Shown here in pieces: positions 211 through 10,425 of a DNA stretch of 24,414 nucleotides (positions within the stretch are counted from its first letter, which is position 1; every line of letters starts with the position of its first letter). This stretch comes from a virus, in IMG/VR virus record IMGVR_UViG_3300033153_002870, positions 1 to 24,414 of that record; one strand, given 5' to 3'. Position numbers and translations under genes: made by a program. The notes below the pieces were generated by a model. The model had not been told where the DNA came from. It worked only from the letters and a program-made list of their open reading frames with translations, and searched no databases.

Positions 211-1482
211 TTAATCGTTTTCTTTTCTTAATGCTTTAAGTTTTTCTTTTAATATCTTAAATTCTACAATTTGCTTCGGAGTTTTATTTTCAGTTGCAAG
301 TAGTATTTCATATCTTTTTATTTCTTTTTTAGCTGCATTGTCTATAATTTTTTTATCTTTATAAACCTTAATTTCACGTTTATCTTTTCTAGTTTCTTCT
401 TGTTTTTTAATTAAAGCATCTCGTTTTCTATCATATGTTTCTTGTTTTTTAAGAAGCTTTCCACTTATAACTTCAAGTGCTTTAATTTTACCCTTAACAC
501 TTAATGTTTTATCATTATTTATTTTTGCGAAAGCATCTTGTCTAGACTTATACATATTATTTGTAAAATCTTCAGGAGAAAGAGTAACATCTTTGGTTGT
601 AACTTTTTCGGTTATCTTTTCTTTTATTCCAAGAGTATCAACTAGATTTTTTACTTTTTTATCGACATCTTTTTCTTGAACTTTTCTTTTAGTTCTTATA
701 TCACCAATAGATTTAAGCTTTTCATCTATCATATCTGATTGACTCTTTCCTTTATATTTTCTATCGATCATTTTACCAAATTCATCCATTCCAATATTTG
801 CTTTTGCAATATCTTTTGGTGTTCTAAATAGATCCACAACAGGAGAAAATGCTCTTGCTATTCCTTCAGTAATTTTTGCACCTCCATATGGTATCATAGA
901 TGGAATTCCACCTGGATATGAACCAAGTGTTTTTTCTTTTCCTACTACTCCATATTTATCTGCTAAATCTAACTGTGCAACTTTTCTTCTATTTATATCC
1001 TCAATATAATTTGGACTATTAATATCTTCATATGATTTATATTGTTTTTCAAACTTTAAGTCATCTTCAGTATTTCTTGTTACTCCAGCAGTTCCCTCAT
1101 CGTAAGCTTTTACTATTTGTTTATTTGCTTCATCACTATAGGTAGTTGCCTCAGTTATAACATCTTTAGTAATATCTCCAGTCATTTTTGGATCAACAGA
1201 TACATTCATTCCAGCCATAATACCAGCAAGTGCATCAGTATCTGATTGCTTTCTTCTTGTTATTTCATCTTGATATCTACCTTCATCTCTTTCAATTTTA
1301 CCAGCAGCAAGCGAATCTAATCTGTTCTGTCTTGCCATTTGAATTTGATATCTACGTTCATTTCTTGCATCAAGAAATTCATCTCTTCTTGATTCATCTC
1401 TTTGTTTAGACATTTCCATTAGTGCATCGCCAAATCCACGTACAGCGGCAGGAGCTGAAAATCCTCTTATTCTACTAGCCAT
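211..1482 (-). CDS. Putative internal virion protein, charged coiled coil (423 aa)
   Basis: I do not recognise a named family. The N-terminus is basic and has a short hydrophobic stretch (GFSAPAAVRGFGDALMEM), followed by a helical Arg/Glu/Gln-rich segment to about residue 80. The middle has a Gly/Pro-rich patch near residues 190-210 (LGSYPGGIPSMIPYGGAK). The C-terminal third, from about residue 325, is Lys/Glu-rich and strongly helical, ending in LKALRKEND. There is no signal peptide. The ATG has AAAGGATATAT upstream. It lies 9 bases after the 167-aa gene and 10 bases before the next one, in a cluster that also holds a membrane-helix virion protein. Soluble helical proteins in this place are often ejected internal virion proteins, as gp15/gp16 are in T7. 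That role is inferred from position and composition only. Confidence 0.8.
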   Translation of the reverse strand: MASRIRGFSAPAAVRGFGDALMEMSKQRDESRRDEFLDARNERRYQIQMARQNRLDSLAAGKIERDEGRYQDEITRRKQSDTDALAGIMAGMNVSVDPKMTGDITKDVITEATTYSDEANKQIVKAYDEGTAGVTRNTEDDLKFEKQYKSYEDINSPNYIEDINRRKVAQLDLADKYGVVGKEKTLGSYPGGIPSMIPYGGAKITEGIARAFSPVVDLFRTPKDIAKANIGMDEFGKMIDRKYKGKSQSDMIDEKLKSIGDIRTKRKVQEKDVDKKVKNLVDTLGIKEKITEKVTTKDVTLSPEDFTNNMYKSRQDAFAKINNDKTLSVKGKIKALEVISGKLLKKQETYDRKRDALIKKQEETRKDKREIKVYKDKKIIDNAAKKEIKRYEILLATENKTPKQIVEFKILKEKLKALRKEND

Positions 1483-1491
1483 ATATATCCT

Positions 1492-1995
1492 TTAAACGTA
1501 CTTATAATCAGAACCAGATAAGTCTCTTGTTCCACCAGTCATTTGGTCTTGAACAGCCTTGGCTCTTTCTCTTGAGTTTTGTCTATCTTTTATTTGAACA
1601 TTAATTGCTGCATCAGCTCTTTTATCATTCTTGTATGCTTCATATAGTTTACCAAGTGTACCAACTGTACTCATCCAATCCATTCCTTGACTTGTTCCAC
1701 CAGTTCCTGGAGCATTTAGATTTGTACTTTTAGCTAGATTTCCAGCTGAACCACCAAGACCACCAGTAGTATTTGGTACAACTGCACCTTTTGTATCTAG
1801 TTGTAGCTTTGGAGCAAATGAAGGCATTCCTGTTTGATTACTCATAGGAGTAAATCCTTCTAGTTGTGTTGATTCTAAATTAATATCTGGAACTGCTTCT
1901 GCAACATTTGGAGTTATTGCCTCACCTAGTCCTGACATCATTTGTCCTGGTAATTGAAGTATACTTCCAAAAAGATTTCCTAATCCTAAACTCAT
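1492..1995 (-). CDS. Putative small internal virion protein, Gly-rich (167 aa)
   Basis: The protein begins with a hydrophobic, glycine-punctuated segment (GLGNLFGSILQLPGQMM) that could be amphipathic. It then has a low-complexity Gly/Asn/Thr linker around residues 75-105, a short helix (WMSTVGTLGKLYEAYKND) and a basic helical end with DRQNSRERAKAVQDQM. This pattern, a Gly-rich start followed by a hydrophobic patch and an Arg/Gln helix, recurs in small internal virion proteins that sit ahead of larger ejection proteins in podoviruses. The resemblance is in layout, not in a proven family match. The start has AAAAGGAAATAAT directly upstream and is the first gene after a 65-base gap with a probable promoter, so it may lead its own transcript with the 423-aa gene. 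Confidence 0.8.
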   Translation of the reverse strand: MSLGLGNLFGSILQLPGQMMSGLGEAITPNVAEAVPDINLESTQLEGFTPMSNQTGMPSFAPKLQLDTKGAVVPNTTGGLGGSAGNLAKSTNLNAPGTGGTSQGMDWMSTVGTLGKLYEAYKNDKRADAAINVQIKDRQNSRERAKAVQDQMTGGTRDLSGSDYKYV

Positions 1996-2060: not shown

Positions 2061-4340
2061 CTATCCAGATACAACTTGTTTTCTTAATTCTATTTGTGAA
2101 TCAATGTCATAGAACTGATCAAAGTTATATAGATTTTCACCTAATAAATTATGATATAGCGTTTCTGGACCATTCACATCCATGAATGAAAAGTGTGCTG
2201 ACATATCCGCTTTAGGATATAGAGTCATGGCACTTTGATAATCTTCTATTCTATCACCTATTCTTTCATCTGCTTCTTCTTCTTTCTTTCTCATAGCTTC
2301 TTCTTTTGCTATATGTATTGAATATGCATTTAAAGCCATACTAGAAACTTGTGTTGCAAGTTGAAGATAGTTTTCAACTGTAAGCATTTCAAAGTCAAAT
2401 CCACCCATATACATTTGCATAAGCATTATTACCATTTGTAATATTAATTTTAATATATCACTATCTATCATTTCGGCTATCTTTTCCAATACTAAAGTTA
2501 TGGCTATGGATACAACTATCTTTATTATCAATGCTGCCCATCCACATCCTGCTCCCCACGAACCTATACATACAACAATAGCTATCAATACTCCAATAAA
2601 TCGTTCATACCATTTTATTGTTACAGTCTTTACAGCATAAGCTAAGAGTGAAAATGAATGTTCATATAATGTTACATATTCATTAAACTTTACATCCTTT
2701 AGTACATGATATGGTAATATTATTCTGTGCTCACCCATTGGAGAACCAAGTTTATTTTTGAATCCATGTCCAGATATATTAAACTTTTGTTGATAATTTA
2801 TGATTATCATTTCTTGATATTGTGTAGGATTTTTTTGTACACGAATAACTAATTTATCAAAGCCTTCAGAGTCTTCAGTTACGGTTTTTGTTCTATCACC
2901 TTCATCATCTTTAACACTAATTAGTGTTCCAGAGAAATGTAAATATCCTTGTTCTCTTTTATTCGTAACTCCTTCATCACCTCTAACCGTTCCTTCATAT
3001 GTTTTTACACTCATATCAAAGTTATATGACATATCTAATTTTGACATTGCAAATGATACACCACCAACACTTGAACTCCTTGGACTAAAGAATCGGCTAG
3101 ATGGTGGAACATAGTCAGGATCTGCCGCCATTGCTTCTTCACATTCAATATCACCTTCTTCACATTCAGGTTCAATTAATCTATCATCTATTGTAGCATC
3201 AAAATCACCATCTATGATTTCATCACCCATATAGAATATAGTTTTTCTAGCCACTGGTTCTGAGTCGTATGCATTTGCATAATATCCAAATGTTCTGAAT
3301 AATGCTCTTGCTAAATAGTTTTGTTCCTTCAGGTGATCTTGATACCATTTTTCAGCAACTTCTTCTGTAACTTCATATGAGGTTTTATTCTTATCAGATG
3401 TATAAGATAGTCCTTTCTTAGTAAGTATTTGCAATAGTCCAGTAGACAATGCTTCTGCTTCACTAGGACTATATGATCCGACTCTTACTTCATATGGATT
3501 TCTTAATGGTATTCCATTTACAAGATATGCATTATCAATTAATGGTTCACCGTCATCATCTCTTTCAGTCAATGATTCTTCAAAATCTCTTGATGATACA
3601 TTTAGTTTATTCATCATTCTTCGAAGATTCATTGTGGTAGGAATGATTTTTCCTCTTTCTTTTAGAGGGACAATTGGAGTAAGAGATAATTCTTCTTCAA
3701 AATATATATCTTCTGGTATAGTATCTACATCCTCAATATATATAAAGAAGTCATCAACATTCAGTCTAAAATATAGAACAACAAATATTTTTAAATCAAG
3801 AACATCATTTGAAAATTCAATATATATATCTTCTATTTCTTCATCTGCATTTACAAATGTTCCAACCAGAATTGTTTCATCATCATCTATATTTGGATCA
3901 TCATTCTCTTTATAACTTATATATTCTAATTTATACGGAACCAGATCTACAATTAATTCATTTGTTTTAGTTACCCAATCATAATCACTTTCTTGCATTC
4001 TATATGTAAAATATATATCATTTTCTGAACTTGATACAAATGTTGAAAATGTTTTTTCAAAATACTCATCTTTAGATAATATATAGTCGTTCACTACATC
4101 ATCGTTAAATTGTATTGTGAACCCATTAGCAGTTGGTTGATATCCAAATCTTATAAGGAAATCTTCAGTATATCTAGATCGATAGTCATGTTTCCAATTC
4201 CAGTATCCCATGTTGTATTCATTCATTGAATTTGTAGTCCACATAAGTTGCTTTTTTGTTGATCTAATAGAAATATCTGTTTCTAATAGATTTACAAATT
4301 GCATATCAGTAAAGGTTTTCTTTTTATCTAATGCACTCAT
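2061..4340 (-). CDS. Large virion protein with hydrophobic helices; possible ejection-channel component (759 aa)
   Basis: I place the start at the ATG giving MSALDKKK, because GGAGAAG lies just upstream and this ATG shares its A with the TAA stop of the preceding gene. An upstream TTG would add five residues but lacks support. The first 540 residues are hydrophilic and acidic, with long beta-like stretches. Residues about 581-619 and 628-645 are strongly hydrophobic (for example FIGVLIAIVVCIGSWGAG), enough for two or three membrane helices. A charged helix (AKEEAMRKKEEEADERIGDR) follows at about 679-698. There is no signal peptide. A soluble virion protein with late hydrophobic helices suits a protein that enters the host envelope during DNA ejection. 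This is inference; I do not recognise a characterised homologue. Confidence 0.85.
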   Translation of the reverse strand: MSALDKKKTFTDMQFVNLLETDISIRSTKKQLMWTTNSMNEYNMGYWNWKHDYRSRYTEDFLIRFGYQPTANGFTIQFNDDVVNDYILSKDEYFEKTFSTFVSSSENDIYFTYRMQESDYDWVTKTNELIVDLVPYKLEYISYKENDDPNIDDDETILVGTFVNADEEIEDIYIEFSNDVLDLKIFVVLYFRLNVDDFFIYIEDVDTIPEDIYFEEELSLTPIVPLKERGKIIPTTMNLRRMMNKLNVSSRDFEESLTERDDDGEPLIDNAYLVNGIPLRNPYEVRVGSYSPSEAEALSTGLLQILTKKGLSYTSDKNKTSYEVTEEVAEKWYQDHLKEQNYLARALFRTFGYYANAYDSEPVARKTIFYMGDEIIDGDFDATIDDRLIEPECEEGDIECEEAMAADPDYVPPSSRFFSPRSSSVGGVSFAMSKLDMSYNFDMSVKTYEGTVRGDEGVTNKREQGYLHFSGTLISVKDDEGDRTKTVTEDSEGFDKLVIRVQKNPTQYQEMIIINYQQKFNISGHGFKNKLGSPMGEHRIILPYHVLKDVKFNEYVTLYEHSFSLLAYAVKTVTIKWYERFIGVLIAIVVCIGSWGAGCGWAALIIKIVVSIAITLVLEKIAEMIDSDILKLILQMVIMLMQMYMGGFDFEMLTVENYLQLATQVSSMALNAYSIHIAKEEAMRKKEEEADERIGDRIEDYQSAMTLYPKADMSAHFSFMDVNGPETLYHNLLGENLYNFDQFYDIDSQIELRKQVVSG

Positions 4341-4825
4341 TAGTCTTCTCCACAAATTCTTTTAAGTCTTGGTCCAACATCTGAATTGAATATTGAAAAT
4401 TCAAGCAAAGCTGGAAGGGGTTTTACTAGTTTACCATACAATGATAAATCAGTAGCTCCCATCTGTATTATTGCACCTTTATATAGGTGATTGATTAAAT
4501 AGTTTATTAAAACTATTGATCCCTTTCCTTTTCTGTTATCTTTATGAATATAGAAGTATCCAAGCCAAGGAGTTTTTTCTTCTTCTGTAACACTTGAAAA
4601 CGATATTCCAATAAGCTTATCGTTTTTAAATAAGCCAATTGGATTATAGTTTGGTTTAGTTAATGCAAACATAATTTCTTTTTTTAACACTCTTCTATCT
4701 TTTGAATTCATTTCTATGCCACGTTGTCTACTTAGTTTTACGGTAGACAGTAATCTGAATATATCAATACCATCATCCTTGTTTAGTAGTCTCAATTGAA
4801 ATCCAAATTTTTCATAAAGTATCAT
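4340..4825 (-). CDS. GNAT-like N-acetyltransferase domain protein (161 aa)
   Basis: The length and pattern fit a single GNAT domain. There is a central beta pair (PIGLFKNDKLIGISFSSV, about residues 62-79), then a strand (GYFYIHKD) followed by R98-KGKGS at about 98-103. That run matches the Arg/Gln-x-x-Gly-x-Gly/Ala loop that binds the acetyl-CoA pyrophosphate. A helix and another strand follow. The acceptor cannot be predicted. Its start codon shares its A with the TAA stop of the 354-aa gene, and its own TAA shares an A with the next ATG, so translation is coupled on both sides to virion genes. Possible roles are acetylation of a virion or host protein, or a catalytically dead structural use of the fold. 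The assignment rests on motif reading without an alignment. Confidence 0.6.
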   Translation of the reverse strand: MILYEKFGFQLRLLNKDDGIDIFRLLSTVKLSRQRGIEMNSKDRRVLKKEIMFALTKPNYNPIGLFKNDKLIGISFSSVTEEEKTPWLGYFYIHKDNRKGKGSIVLINYLINHLYKGAIIQMGATDLSLYGKLVKPLPALLEFSIFNSDVGPRLKRICGED

Positions 4826-5889
4826 TAAAATTCTCCTGTTCTGTATATTGTACCATCGCCAAGAGTCATCTTTGGATATTGTGGTACAGCTATTTGTCTA
4901 CATGAACTCCAGTCATTGAAATGTAAACTATAATATCTACAACATGTAGTATATCTTCTATCATCATATTGACTATAATCAAAATATTTATCTAAAAATA
5001 TTTCAACTTCAAATTCTTCACAGGCTACATATATTTCGGAACCTGGAGTTATAAAGAAATTTAAATTTTCATCAAGTACTTTAAATTCAATTTCTATTTC
5101 AACTTCTTTTTGATGCATCGGTATTGTTACTTGAATTGGTGCAAAAAAATCTACATCATTTTTAGCAGTTCCACCAATATATGATAATGATACTACAGTA
5201 TCTTCTTTTATTATATCGTCTTCCCATCTATCATCAAATCCTATAATGTATTTATATATACCAGGCTCTTTTATTTCATCTTCACCATGAACTTCAAGAC
5301 ATACAAATGGTATATATTTGTTTAGTTCCTCATCCCATGTCCAATCTGGCAGCTCATCACATGTTCCAGTTTTTGGATTATATATTGTCCCTGGAGGACA
5401 ATATGATTCTGGATTAGCAACTTTTAAAAAGCGAAAATTTATGTCAGTAGAATAGAAATATGGATGCTTGTATCTTCCTACTTCAGACCACCATTCAGTA
5501 GGAATATAAAATTTAGCATATACACTATCTGCCCAGTAGTTTTGAAATCTATCTACACCATTTCCAGCAGAAATATAATCATCATTTACTGATGTTGTAT
5601 ATGTTCCTGCTGTTGTATCTCTAAGGTCATATGTCCAGTATCCAGAAAAACCAATACTATGTAAAACTAATCCATAATCAAATCTTCCGTCACCACAACT
5701 ATATCCAGTACTTCCAAATGATGTTATTGCTGGATCATATCCAGGTCCAACAATAACAGAATGATATTGATTTGTTGCAGTATAACTTCTATCTGGAAGA
5801 AATGCACGCATTGCTTCAAAATCTAAGTTACAAGGTGAACTGTTTGGATCGAGATATATACATCTTCCATCATAGCAATTTCCATCCAT
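4825..5889 (-). CDS. Virion surface protein with Cys module and Calx-beta-like domain (354 aa)
   Basis: Three parts can be seen. Residues 1-160 are aromatic and Gly-rich with several Cys, without a family I can name. Residues about 163-177 (YCPPGTIYNPKTGTCDE) resemble the short Cys-bounded motif of carbohydrate-binding or EGF-like modules. Residues about 205-285 look like a Calx-beta domain: an extended strand with VSLSYIGGTAKNDVDF followed by VTIPMHQKEVEIEIEF, matching the usual 'GTA..D.DF ... V.IP' pattern. Calx-beta repeats are common in adhesins and in phage appendage proteins. The C-terminus has a CC pair at residues 316-317. The ATG has TTAAGGATAAACT upstream. It follows the BppU-like gene by 9 bases and overlaps the next start by one base. 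A host-binding or appendage role is likely but inferred. Confidence 0.75.
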   Translation of the reverse strand: MDGNCYDGRCIYLDPNSSPCNLDFEAMRAFLPDRSYTATNQYHSVIVGPGYDPAITSFGSTGYSCGDGRFDYGLVLHSIGFSGYWTYDLRDTTAGTYTTSVNDDYISAGNGVDRFQNYWADSVYAKFYIPTEWWSEVGRYKHPYFYSTDINFRFLKVANPESYCPPGTIYNPKTGTCDELPDWTWDEELNKYIPFVCLEVHGEDEIKEPGIYKYIIGFDDRWEDDIIKEDTVVSLSYIGGTAKNDVDFFAPIQVTIPMHQKEVEIEIEFKVLDENLNFFITPGSEIYVACEEFEVEIFLDKYFDYSQYDDRRYTTCCRYYSLHFNDWSSCRQIAVPQYPKMTLGDGTIYRTGEF

Positions 5890-5898
5890 AGTTTATCC

Positions 5899-6663
5899 TT
5901 AAACTGTCAAGTCATCAACAATAGTGAATACACCTTTTTCGTAAGTATAAACATATGTTCCATCATTACCTTCGATATCATATACTCCAGAACCAGCTTC
6001 ACCTACAGCATCTACTTCGAGTACAAATTCAACTCTACCATTTACACCATCAATAATTGTTCCAACAGAAGTATATAGTATTTTATTATTTAATCTACTA
6101 GACAACTTAAAGGTATGACCTTCAATATTTGTATTACCATTTCTACCTAAAACTGTCTGTACAGGATAAGTATCGCCTCTAAATCTTTTAAGTTCCACAC
6201 TTGCTCCTTTAATTCTACATACTGAACTATCAATTTCTTGTACTATCATATTTATTGTTAAGTCTGCACAGTATACTAATGCATGTGCATTTACAATATT
6301 TGATGATAGAAATCCAAACATTGATGAATATGCATTTACAAGATTTTGAGCTGAAAGATCTTCGGTTATTAATTCACCAACAAACGATACTACTCCAGCA
6401 TTACTATATACTCTTGGAGATACTAGCATATCTGCTTCGGCTCTCATTACAACAGCAAATGGTCCATTCTGCTTACCATCTATACTACTGTTAAGCACTC
6501 CATCAATAATTATATGCCCAGAACTTAATAGATTTTGAGCATCAACTATACTTGATAATATTCCTACTACACCACTTAGTTGTGCAGTAACAATTGTTTG
6601 GCTACTAACACTTACTAGTAATGTTCCTTCGATACCTACAAATCCACTATCTTGATTAGCCAT
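5899..6663 (-). CDS. Virion protein with BppU-like C-terminal domain (254 aa)
   Basis: The C-terminal 100 residues match the pattern of the N-terminal domain of baseplate upper protein BppU and related phage proteins. It opens with VELKRFRGDTYPVQTVL, then an Ig-like beta run with GTIIDGVNGRVEFVLEVDAV, and closes with TYVYTYEKGVFTIVDDLT. That domain usually anchors receptor-binding parts to the particle. The first 150 residues contain two similar segments, GILSSIVDAQNLLS near 34-47 and GFLSSNIVNAHALV near 117-130, which suggests an old internal repeat. The start has ATAAGGATTAGACT upstream, 10 bases after the previous gene. An appendage or collar position is likely; the exact place in the particle is unknown. 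Confidence 0.75.
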   Translation of the reverse strand: MANQDSGFVGIEGTLLVSVSSQTIVTAQLSGVVGILSSIVDAQNLLSSGHIIIDGVLNSSIDGKQNGPFAVVMRAEADMLVSPRVYSNAGVVSFVGELITEDLSAQNLVNAYSSMFGFLSSNIVNAHALVYCADLTINMIVQEIDSSVCRIKGASVELKRFRGDTYPVQTVLGRNGNTNIEGHTFKLSSRLNNKILYTSVGTIIDGVNGRVEFVLEVDAVGEAGSGVYDIEGNDGTYVYTYEKGVFTIVDDLTV

Positions 6664-6673
6664 AGTCTAATCC

Positions 6674-7069
6674 TTATGCGAATGTAATTTCTAAATCACC
6701 TATTGGAATTCTAAAATTATTTGTATCCAGTACAGATACTGGATTAGTTAATATCTTATGCATTAACATGTTTCCACCAGTTGCTTCATCAAATACAGCA
6801 ACATGAGTAATCGTTACCCAATCACCAGTAGCAGCAGTAAACAGCAATTCATTAGTATTTAATGAAACTCCATTTGCAGGTGCATCCATAGTAATTGTTA
6901 TTCTAGCATATGCTGGAGATGTTCCATCTTCTAATTCCGTACCACTTCCATCATCAAGAGGATCTGTACTGAAAAGAGCTAAATGTATAACCCCTGGAGT
7001 TGTGAAAGCTGTATTTCTAAATACGTGATCTACTAATTTGTTTTCTAAGTAATCTGACATTTGTGCCAT
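6674..7069 (-). CDS. Conserved small phage structural protein (131 aa)
   Basis: The protein begins MAQMSDYLENKLVDHVFRN, followed by a beta-rich domain with HLALFSTDP, YARITITMDAP, a WVTITHVAVFDEATGGNML strand pair and a closing GDLEITFA. This is a family I recognise from many tailed phages, where a protein of about 130-150 residues starting with 'YLEN.LLDHVF' lies among tail or appendage genes. It is often labelled a tail or fibre protein, without a proven role. The length is normal and complete. The ATG has AAAAGGAAACAAT upstream, after a 67-base gap with a hairpin and probable promoter, so it may be the first gene of a transcript that includes the BppU-like and Calx-beta-like genes. Confidence 0.85.
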   Translation of the reverse strand: MAQMSDYLENKLVDHVFRNTAFTTPGVIHLALFSTDPLDDGSGTELEDGTSPAYARITITMDAPANGVSLNTNELLFTAATGDWVTITHVAVFDEATGGNMLMHKILTNPVSVLDTNNFRIPIGDLEITFA

Positions 7070-7098
7070 ATTGTTTCCTTTTGTTTTTTATATTTTAT

Positions 7099-7131
7099 AT
7101 AATACCATAATTTTTTATATTATATGGTATT
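7099..7131 (-). promoter_or_regulatory. Hairpin overlapping an extended -10 box upstream of the 131-aa gene
   Basis: On the minus strand, AATACCATATAAT pairs with ATTATGGTATT around a short A-rich loop (7131-7101), with two unpaired bases in the first arm. The second arm contains TGGTATTAT (7107-7099), an extended -10 motif. No run of T follows on the minus strand, so this is not a classical intrinsic terminator in the coding direction. On the plus strand it is followed by TTATTTTTAT, but there is no plus-strand gene to terminate. Confidence 0.45.
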
Positions 7132-7136
7132 TATTT

Positions 7137-8255
7137 TTATCTAGTATAACTTGAACCTTGACAAGCTGTTCCAGCTCCAGTTATAAAGTTACCATCTTCA
7201 TCCCAAGAACCAGCTAGTCTATTTCTAAGTCTTTCGTATGATTCACAAATTTGTGTATCTACAATAGATGGTGTTACTGCATCCATTTCAGTATCAGCAA
7301 ACACCATTGACCACGCTTGTAGTTGAGAATCATATAACTTCTGGTTCGCATTGTCGTTAAATCCTTCGATCTGACGTTCATACAATCTAGATTGTGCACT
7401 TGCAATTTTAGATGAATTACAACAGTCACATGCTAACTTATTTTCATTAGCAGCATTAAGTGAAATCTTACTATCTGTTATGTTCGTTTCGTTATCACAC
7501 TCACATACCATTTTCTCAATTTGTTGAGTATTAACTGCACATTGTGATGCTGTTGTACAATCTCTTCTTGCAGATTCAAGAGGAATTTCTTTTTCTTGTG
7601 CAACAATTAGATCTACTTCAGCATCCATTTTACCATCTTCTGAATCTTCTCCGACAACAATATTTCCATCAGCATCAAGAGTATATTCATATCCAAGAAC
7701 TTTATCTATTTGTGCTATTGAATTAGCTTGATCAAGTGCAACTTGTGTTTTAGCTATTTCAACATCAGCTATCATCTTATATGTTTGTTGATCGTAGATA
7801 CCATCGTCTTCATTATGTTTGTTTTCTGATTCAATCTTCTCAACAACTAATGCAGTTTCTTCAGTAACTTTAAGTGTTTCTTCTTCAACTTTTAATGTTT
7901 GTGCAGTTTTTAATGCACACTCAGCAGCAGCAAGACATGCATCATTTTCAATATCAGCACGCAACTTATCTATTTGTGCCTGAAGGAAACATAATTCAAG
8001 CTGGTTCTTCTTCTCGTTCAATTCAAATCTTATTGATTCTTTCATTGACTCCATGATTGCAGTACCATATGCCACACCTGCATCTTCTTCTCTAAGCTCT
8101 CCTCTATTTTTAGAGTCTTCAAGATGTACTCTTGTAATACTTAAAAGATCGCCAAAGAATCCACCATCGCTAATGGTCATATCACCGACTACATTGGACC
8201 AATCGACCTTCTTTACGGGATCTGTGCCATCACAATTTAATATTTCTTCAGCCAT
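7137..8255 (-). CDS. Coiled-coil virion protein with a cysteine cluster (372 aa)
   Basis: A helical, Ala/Glu/Gln-rich protein that resembles a coiled-coil structural family of marine-type podoviruses. The recognisable part is the C-terminal block RQIEGFNDNANQKLYDSQ followed by LQAWSMVFADTEMD (about 294-324). It has 13 Cys, unusually many for a cytoplasm-assembled virion protein: residues 8, 89, 107, 113, 233, 239, 251, 253, 276, 278, 279, 337 and 365. Seven of them fall in residues 233-279, including CEC and CDCC. This could bind metal or form cross-links after release; neither is shown. The start has AAAGGAATTTT upstream and follows an 87-base gap with a probable promoter and a hairpin. A tail or head-tail structural role is inferred from position. 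Confidence 0.8.
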   Translation of the reverse strand: MAEEILNCDGTDPVKKVDWSNVVGDMTISDGGFFGDLLSITRVHLEDSKNRGELREEDAGVAYGTAIMESMKESIRFELNEKKNQLELCFLQAQIDKLRADIENDACLAAAECALKTAQTLKVEEETLKVTEETALVVEKIESENKHNEDDGIYDQQTYKMIADVEIAKTQVALDQANSIAQIDKVLGYEYTLDADGNIVVGEDSEDGKMDAEVDLIVAQEKEIPLESARRDCTTASQCAVNTQQIEKMVCECDNETNITDSKISLNAANENKLACDCCNSSKIASAQSRLYERQIEGFNDNANQKLYDSQLQAWSMVFADTEMDAVTPSIVDTQICESYERLRNRLAGSWDEDGNFITGAGTACQGSSYTR

Positions 8256-9094: not shown

Positions 9095-9111
9095 AAGACT
9101 TATACAGTCTT
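9095..9111 (-). other. Hairpin across the capsid stop codon
   Basis: AAGACT, loop GTATA, AGTCTT on the minus strand forms a 6-bp stem that includes the TAA stop of the capsid gene. It lies 16 bases before the intrinsic terminator. It may simply help protect the 3' end of the abundant capsid mRNA, or may be chance. Confidence 0.35.
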
Positions 9112-10425
9112 AAGACTACAAGAAATTTGTCTAATCCACTCTGGGTGAAGATACATAATTCCGTAGTACCATGCGATTGATACCGCACCTTTTTTACCGT
9201 ACACATCGTTATGTGCATCAGCTTTAGGCATAATTGTTGTTACTCTCGCAACATCACCTTCGAATCCTACAGTTGCAAAAGAACCAGAACCTACGAATAG
9301 GACAGGGAATACATCATAGAAATCATTAGTTGTGTTGAATGTTACATCATTAGCTGTTGCTGCTGGATCAGAAGCAGTTCCATCTCTATCAGTATCATCA
9401 GTTGAGTTAGAACCTTGACCTGCATAGTTTGGCATTTCTTCAACTTCGATGAATCTAAATGCACCGATTCTACCGATCTCGTCCATTGCAATTGTTCCAG
9501 CAGCTGCATAATCCTCTACAGGACTCCATACATCTTTACTGTTATGTTGCATATCTTCAAGAGTTGGTAGTGCTTCAAGACCTACATAAACATATCTAGC
9601 TTTTCCAATAGTAGTTGTACCTACTTTTGTAGAACCGTCAATTAGCTTAGTTGATTTTGGGCTTCTCGCTTCTTTAAGGGATTGGTCCATTAGTCTAAGG
9701 TCTGCGAATGTTAATGTGTCATCTGCACCAACTGCACCTAGCTCTGTTGCATCACCTGCAAATACTCTGTTGTCTTCTGATTTACTGATTAGAGAGTTTC
9801 TAATTTGTGCTTCACGAATGTCACCTTGAGTTTCACCAATACCTCTTGAATATCTAGCAAGTAAACCTACTTCAGTATCCATTTCTAGTGATTTTTTAGT
9901 GAATGATAGATAGAACCCAAACTCTGAAACTTGTGCTTCAATAGTAAGTCTTTTCATACCAACTCTATTAATCATTCCACCTTCTTCTGAAAGTGCTGGG
10001 AATGAACCATTTTGAACAAGTAAATCTTTAGATCCACCGAACAAGTTACCATTACCAGATTTCATCGATACAGCTCCATCTGTTGCTGCTACAATTGCAT
10101 CTTGTGCAAGCAAGTAAGTTGCAAATGTTCCAACTTTAGCTCCATCAACATCATACGTATACCACTCACCAGCAACCATAGTTACTCCGTTAGCATCAAT
10201 ACCTTGATCATTAATGTTTCTAGCATCTAGGATTGGAATCTCGTGATATTTCACGATTTTGTCTCCATAGTGTTTAGGTTGAGTCAATTTGTCACCTAAT
10301 TGTGAAAATGTTTTTACTTTTTTCGCTTCAATTACAGCAGCTCTTGACCAATGTTTGTCGTTAAACTGTACACCAAGTGTACTCGTGGCTGGATCATATC
10401 CACCCGTATTAAACTTCATACTCAT
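9100..10425 (-). CDS. Major capsid protein, N4 gp56 type (441 aa)
   Basis: This forms the icosahedral head shell and should have the HK97 fold. Typical features of the N4 gp56 family are visible. These are a basic N-terminal region with VKTFSQLGDKLTQPKHYGDK (about 37-56), IPILDARNINDQG (about 63-75), a middle block with EFGFYLSFTKKSLEMDTE (about 168-185), and a C-terminal signature AHNDVYGKKGAVSIAWYYG (about 404-422). The length is close to that usual for the family. A low-complexity Asp/Thr/Ala segment at about 335-360 interrupts the C-terminal part and is likely a surface loop. The start has AAAGGAAACTCAA upstream, 25 bases after the scaffold stop, and the gene ends at a strong terminator. 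This arrangement fits high, independent expression. Confidence 0.95.
   Translation of the reverse strand: MSMKFNTGGYDPATSTLGVQFNDKHWSRAAVIEAKKVKTFSQLGDKLTQPKHYGDKIVKYHEIPILDARNINDQGIDANGVTMVAGEWYTYDVDGAKVGTFATYLLAQDAIVAATDGAVSMKSGNGNLFGGSKDLLVQNGSFPALSEEGGMINRVGMKRLTIEAQVSEFGFYLSFTKKSLEMDTEVGLLARYSRGIGETQGDIREAQIRNSLISKSEDNRVFAGDATELGAVGADDTLTFADLRLMDQSLKEARSPKSTKLIDGSTKVGTTTIGKARYVYVGLEALPTLEDMQHNSKDVWSPVEDYAAAGTIAMDEIGRIGAFRFIEVEEMPNYAGQGSNSTDDTDRDGTASDPAATANDVTFNTTNDFYDVFPVLFVGSGSFATVGFEGDVARVTTIMPKADAHNDVYGKKGAVSIAWYYGIMYLHPEWIRQISCSLKTV

Follow-up and report, generated by a model that had tools for sequence, protein, structure and literature searches.

The window analysed here, the whole 24,414-base stretch of a virus record, carries on its minus strand the late operon of an N4-like (Schitoviridae-like) phage (Table 1). 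The operon runs in the order portal, scaffold-like protein, major capsid protein, tail tube, three further genes, a gene for a GNAT-fold protein and the tail plug. The portal matches SU10_portal (2e-105) and, among phage records, is most similar to those of Schitoviridae, Pylas (41% identity) being one example; the major capsid protein matches phrog_1357 (1e-83). N4 gp53 itself is assigned to phrog_2220 (1041 bits), the family that the window's plug also matches. The initial annotation had described this gene as coding for a membrane-helix virion protein. A particle protein it is, and its identity is corrected here: it is homologous to gp53, the tail plug of N4.

Table 1. Features of the late operon around the GNAT-fold gene, in window coordinates.
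Feature	Position	Strand	Remarks
N4 gp51-like periplasmic tunnel protein	211..1482	-	position only
N4 gp52-like outer-membrane channel protein	1492..1995	-	position only
Tail plug, N4 gp53-like	2061..4340	-	759 aa from ATG; upstream TTG at 4355; phrog_2220, E 8e-12
TAATG junction with downstream tail plug gene	4338..4342	-	GGAG 7 bases 5' of ATG
GNAT-fold protein gene	4340..4825	-	161 aa; start ATG at 4825-4823; ends TAA
Y130 codon, equivalent of usual GNAT catalytic Tyr	4436..4438	-	kept in 2/7 family members
RKGKGS codons, R98-S103	4517..4534	-	non-consensus P-loop position
TAATG junction with upstream gene	4823..4827	-	GGAG 7 bases 5' of ATG
Direct upstream neighbour	4825..5889	-	no counterpart in L087, L098; sub-threshold CBM_14 match
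Protein with phrog_1084-like C-terminal domain	5899..6663	-	
Gp80-type fibre/head protein	6674..7069	-	PF23140, 136 bits
Tail tube, N4 gp54-like	7137..8255	-	phrog_2050

In N4, gp54 is reported as the tail tube, gp53 as the tail plug, and gp52, gp51 and gp50 as ejected proteins (PMC12633501); a tail plug is likewise reported for phage DEV (PMC12892993). The N4 operon gp54-gp53-gp52-gp51-gp50 has the same gene order as the window around the GNAT-fold gene. In N4, Pylas and Vibrio phi 1, by contrast with the window, the tube and plug genes adjoin, with no gene between them. The gp52-like and gp51-like genes gave no sequence match and were assigned by position. At the N4 gp51 position, Pylas gp66 (L002:23012-24436) is annotated as an acyl-CoA reductase, an annotation that looks doubtful.

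On the other side, the direct upstream neighbour had been called appendage-like, a description that is unproven; the one match of its product was sub-threshold, to CBM_14. The Gp80-type protein has matches in 632 phage records, mostly of Mycobacterium phages, under names that vary between head, minor tail and hypothetical protein. In the metagenomic contig L087, the tail tube (L087:4237-5517) bears a C-terminal extension that shares about 36% identity, over 99 aligned residues, with the C-terminal region of the 5899-6663 product, as if a separate accessory protein had been fused to the tube.

By sequence comparison, the 161-aa reading frame is a real gene, more than a chance ORF, because a homologue with 56% identity lies at the same place in L087. 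The TAATG overlaps with a GGAG-like site, proposed for both of its junctions, were confirmed on the minus strand. Such one-base overlaps occur at two of the 24 consecutive operon junctions listed, both flanking the GNAT-fold gene, and most other starts in the window have AAGGA-type sites rather than the GGAG of these two. The tight coupling of the gene to a particle protein is thus upheld as an arrangement, and translation of the GNAT-fold protein and the plug would probably be coupled.

Then, we evaluated whether the product has the GNAT-type domain suggested for it. The Pfam match of the window protein to Acetyltransf_4 (PF13420) was sub-threshold (18.4 bits vs a cut-off of 24.3), and sub-threshold GNAT matches were obtained for three of the seven family members (window, L009 and L096). 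A single-sequence AlphaFold model was discarded (mean pLDDT 39.6). The model built from the seven-sequence family alignment (A7) reached a pLDDT of 59.1 and a pTM of 0.58, with the best blocks at 70-79 and residues 23-59 poor. Its topology (strand, helix, gap, three strands, helix, strand, helix, two strands) is that expected of a GNAT. A Foldseek search of the PDB returned 27 chains at E <= 0.001, led by 8gxj_C (E 1.2e-4, probability 1.00, TMq 0.56); of the 50 matches listed, almost every one was a named acetyltransferase or GNAT toxin. In the VIA structure comparison, the best match was 8gxk_B (Z 11.1, rmsd 3.5, 138 aligned); GNAT-type rows alone stand out in that list, where the absence of other folds carries no weight. 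When viral structure models were compared with the GNAT-fold model, GNATs were again among the matches. A GNAT fold for the 4340-4825 product is thus supported by a predicted model of moderate confidence.

Foldseek also matched the toxins KacT and AtaT, and Rac of phiKMV-like phages, which has a host target, is reported as a predicted GNAT (PMC7552054), so that a packaged or early host-acting effector, either a KacT/AtaT-type toxin or a Rac-like shut-off factor, has to be weighed. We consider this very improbable: KacT and AtaT rank no better than other GNATs, the gene is located among late structural genes, the window's ORF list holds no antitoxin-like neighbour, PADLOC gave no match for the window protein, and the consensus acetyl-CoA loop is lost. 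Nothing was found in favour of packaging or of action on the host, as the initial annotation had imagined them.

The loss of the loop was assessed against published descriptions of the superfamily, which give the GNAT P-loop consensus as Q/R-x-x-G-x-G/A before helix alpha3, report the catalytic Tyr of alpha4 in 62% of characterised GNATs, and note atypical loops in genuine GNAT enzymes (PMC4964394). None of the seven family members contains the consensus anywhere in its sequence. The loop column reads RKGKGS in the window, KKTKGA in L087 (the closest relative), and EKTKAS, RKTKAL, RNSKAI, RVSDGN and RKTMMS in the other members. Two guides set the register, with R98 first: the spacing of the helices and a single weak profile alignment with 6ao7 (E 1.2), in which R98 falls on the Q of QNQGIG and a Lys on the first Gly. 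A second register, with N97 first, was rejected: it places G/A at the sixth position in 6/7 sequences, but Q/R fails in 7/7 and Gly in 6/7. Since the consensus fails here as well, it is absent in either register. The RKGKGS stretch does lie at residues 98-103, where the initial annotation had placed an acetyl-CoA loop, but it lacks the GNAT P-loop signature. Conservation of that loop in relatives, a check set in advance, was not found either, with KKTKGA in L087 and the consensus in 0/7. At the Tyr130 position the seven members read Y, Y, L, F, M, F and F, with Tyr in the window and L087 and other residues in the remaining five.

This variation of loop and Tyr argues against ordinary catalysis by the protein, as far as its sequence can tell. 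An enzyme that modifies virion parts or acts on the host is unsupported, because the consensus loop is missing in all seven members and the Tyr is kept in two.

A reading that would retain activity is that of a GNAT with a non-standard P-loop acetylating a virion protein; the plug or tube might, for instance, be modified at its N-terminus or at a lysine. This reading would agree with the GNAT fold of the model, with the retention of Tyr130 by the window and L087 proteins, and with the solved GNAT 3d8p, whose loop RNLKIG has a Lys at the same position as the window loop. Furthermore, Met-Ser opens the plug sequence of the window, L087 and L009, Met-Gly that of L098, L065 and L097, and small second residues are of the kind taken by N-terminal acetylases. 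However, the plugs of two further contigs, L093 and L101, also start with Met-Gly, and these 41-kb contigs have no GNAT. Given this, the complete absence of the consensus loop and the wide variation of both columns, we hold an active virion-acetylating enzyme to be unlikely.

The window protein used as query found nothing, by sequence, in 50,697 phage records, in viral contigs or in solved structures. Relatives were located by capsid- and plug-guided scans, reading the gene upstream of the plug, which gave six metagenomic ones: L087, L098, L065, L009, L097 and L096. In all but L096 the GNAT-fold gene lies directly before the plug gene; in L096 it precedes a protein unrecognised as a plug. This last sequence was included in A7 on visual inspection, because of its position and its GNAT-like appearance, and it matches A7 by construction; its own evidence is a sub-threshold match to Acetyltransf_10 (15.9 bits vs a cut-off of 23.6). 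When L065, L009, L087 and L096 were searched in the phage records, the only matches were weak ones of L065 (E 8e-3 to 4e-2), to seven records of 251-257 kb (Klebsiella, Raoultella and Stenotrophomonas phages). A scan of genome contigs with alignment A6 found no relative.

The family stands directly upstream in six of 57 recognised-plug loci, window included (a count from which the already counted L001, L088, L089 and L099 were dropped and in which some near-identical contigs remain, e.g. L021/L022); in most of the others this place is taken by the tail tube. The spacing from GNAT gene to plug ranges from -11 to +4 bases, with the ATG taken as the start of the window's plug. The GNAT gene of L087 and L098 directly follows the tail tube, without the window's three intervening genes, and still adjoins the plug. 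Because these two of the five plug-adjacent relatives keep the adjacency without the accessory genes, the GNAT gene stays with the plug. L093 and L101 have the plug, as well as a capsid that is 65% identical, with no A7 match anywhere on their 41-kb contigs: there the gene is dispensable or replaced.

Several other observations were made at this position. Proteins of 161-164 aa directly before the plug in L016, L041, L105 and L109 received no support as relatives from Pfam, PHROGs (where two of the four were compared) or hhalign and were not counted. They are pre-plug proteins of another lineage (L016:3813-4307, L041:12281-12766, L105:13149-13643, L109:13426-13920), with a TAATG junction in 3/4. 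In L097, the region from tube to GNAT-fold gene (L097:10135-11213) holds an 82-aa ORF, acyl-carrier-like on visual inspection, and a gene whose 279-aa product has the C-terminal domain of a beta-ketoacyl synthase (PF02801, 35.3 bits vs a cut-off of 20.8), a second CoA/acyl-type fold in the GNAT slot. In L096, an ORF between the capsid and the gp55-like gene (L096:11371-12111) resembles, on visual inspection, an insertion of the homing-endonuclease type.

We then compared how the GNAT-fold protein and its neighbours diverge, using pairwise similarities over six phages, Spearman correlation and 720 permutations. GNAT and tail tube correlated by identity at 0.71 (2/720 permutations) and by score at 0.55 (101/720). 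For GNAT and plug, the score gave 0.75 (5/720), the identity a weak 0.34 (74/720). GNAT and capsid gave -0.11 by identity (499/720) and 0.33 by score (135/720). On six phages it is suggestive only, but GNAT similarity would track tube and plug and not capsid. The capsid of the window is closest to that of L009 (77%) and then L065 (69%), whereas for GNAT and plug the nearest relatives are L087 (56% and 42%) and L098 (41% and 41%). Thus the head module (9100-10425) and the tail module (2061-8255) have different closest relatives (L009 for the capsid, L087/L098 for the tail), which, at the level of sequence similarity, is a sign of probable module exchange.

GNAT-type proteins are also found near the tail and ejection genes of other podophages, T7 gp13 being counted among them by analogy. 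T7 gp13 (138 aa) and epsilon15 gp13 (154 aa) lie between the tail tube/nozzle gene and the first internal virion protein: the former between gp12 and gp14, the latter between gp12, a tail protein, and gp14, an internal one. The record of epsilon15 gp13 notes a match to a GNAT by HHpred. Epsilon15 gp13 overlaps both neighbours by one base, like the window gene, and the two gp13 proteins share phrog_308. In the gp13 set, the Tyr position is not Tyr in 8/8 sequences, and the P-loop consensus is matched in T7 gp13, by RLSGKA, but in none of the other seven. The slot between tail tube and ejection module is thus shared with the T7 gp13 family, with the difference that the window GNAT precedes the tail plug, which intervenes, whereas the gp13 proteins precede an ejection channel protein. 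PF11090 (Phage_T7_Gp13) had no match at E<=1 in the window family. Because the profile comparison of A7 with the gp13 set (A8) was not significant (hhalign probability 0.1%), we do not file the window family as a T7 gp13 homologue; homology is not shown, and the likeness may be a functional analogy drawn from fold and position. P22 gp14, in the same slot, belongs to its own family (DUF2824) with a weak glyoxalase match, and was left out of the argument.

A comparable arrangement occurs in Cobavirus/Zobellviridae, where CRP-5 gp41 and SIO1 pc40 (phrog_1249) are annotated GNATs between structural and internal virion proteins, the internal proteins of CRP-5 being identified by position. The CRP-5 gene has a TAATG junction upstream, like the window gene, and the Cobavirus loop RNGKTS resembles RKGKGS; however, this is a different phage family and its hhalign match to the window family was not significant. 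According to published reports, pc40 could correspond to T7 gp13, for which a function in virion morphogenesis has been suggested (PMC6775973). They describe YA3 ORF13 as an acetyltransferase/DUF2833 that overlaps both neighbours, in a phage whose particles yielded 13 proteins, some but not all of them named (PMC7326022), and place ZP6 ORF12 after the tail tubular proteins (PMC8515928). The virion-protein table of phiPsa17 has gp14, gp15, gp16, gp6.7 and gp7.3 and does not include VO98_195, the T7 gp13 homologue (PMC4517105). No description of a GNAT-fold gene at the tube/plug boundary of an N4-like phage was found in the parts of the literature that our search covered.

Elsewhere, such GNAT genes have been read as host-metabolism genes (PMC6918029, PMC10504331), and for the same slot in CRP-5 this is the published reading (PMC6918029). 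An auxiliary metabolic gene standing in the structural operon by chance, as proposed for CRP-4/CRP-5, is likewise very improbable: adjacency to the plug is kept over strong divergence while neighbour genes come and go, and the same slot is occupied in other podophage groups.

The explanation we favour, with a probability of roughly 0.55, is that the gene product is an assembly factor with a GNAT fold, probably non-catalytic, dedicated to the tail plug and perhaps also to the adjoining ejection module. Re-initiation would lead to its translation immediately before that of the plug, which would make it present while the plug is made. It would presumably bind the plug, or the plug and the tail tube, as the tail closes, and need not remain in the finished particle. 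A role in assembly may be proposed by analogy, since the protein would work like T7 gp13, epsilon15 gp13 and the Cobavirus GNAT at the tail/ejection boundary. More tentatively, it is possible that the GNAT fold was adopted repeatedly in podophage families as a cofactor-free tube/ejection chaperone, here dedicated to the plug and exchanged with tube and plug.

The class of GNAT-type proteins in this slot and their proposed morphogenesis role are already known; new here are the pairing with the plug, the occurrence in an N4-like phage and the erosion of the loop. GNATs beside podophage tail/ejection genes are repeatedly annotated as acetyltransferases or host-metabolism genes, and the present case, in which the cofactor signature is lost and the gene goes with the plug, offers an assembly factor as a concrete alternative. 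If the broader proposal is true, the GNATs annotated as host-metabolism genes in the tail/ejection slot would be mostly morphogenesis proteins. In N4-like phages, the present case would name a missing assembly partner of the plug that gates ejection.
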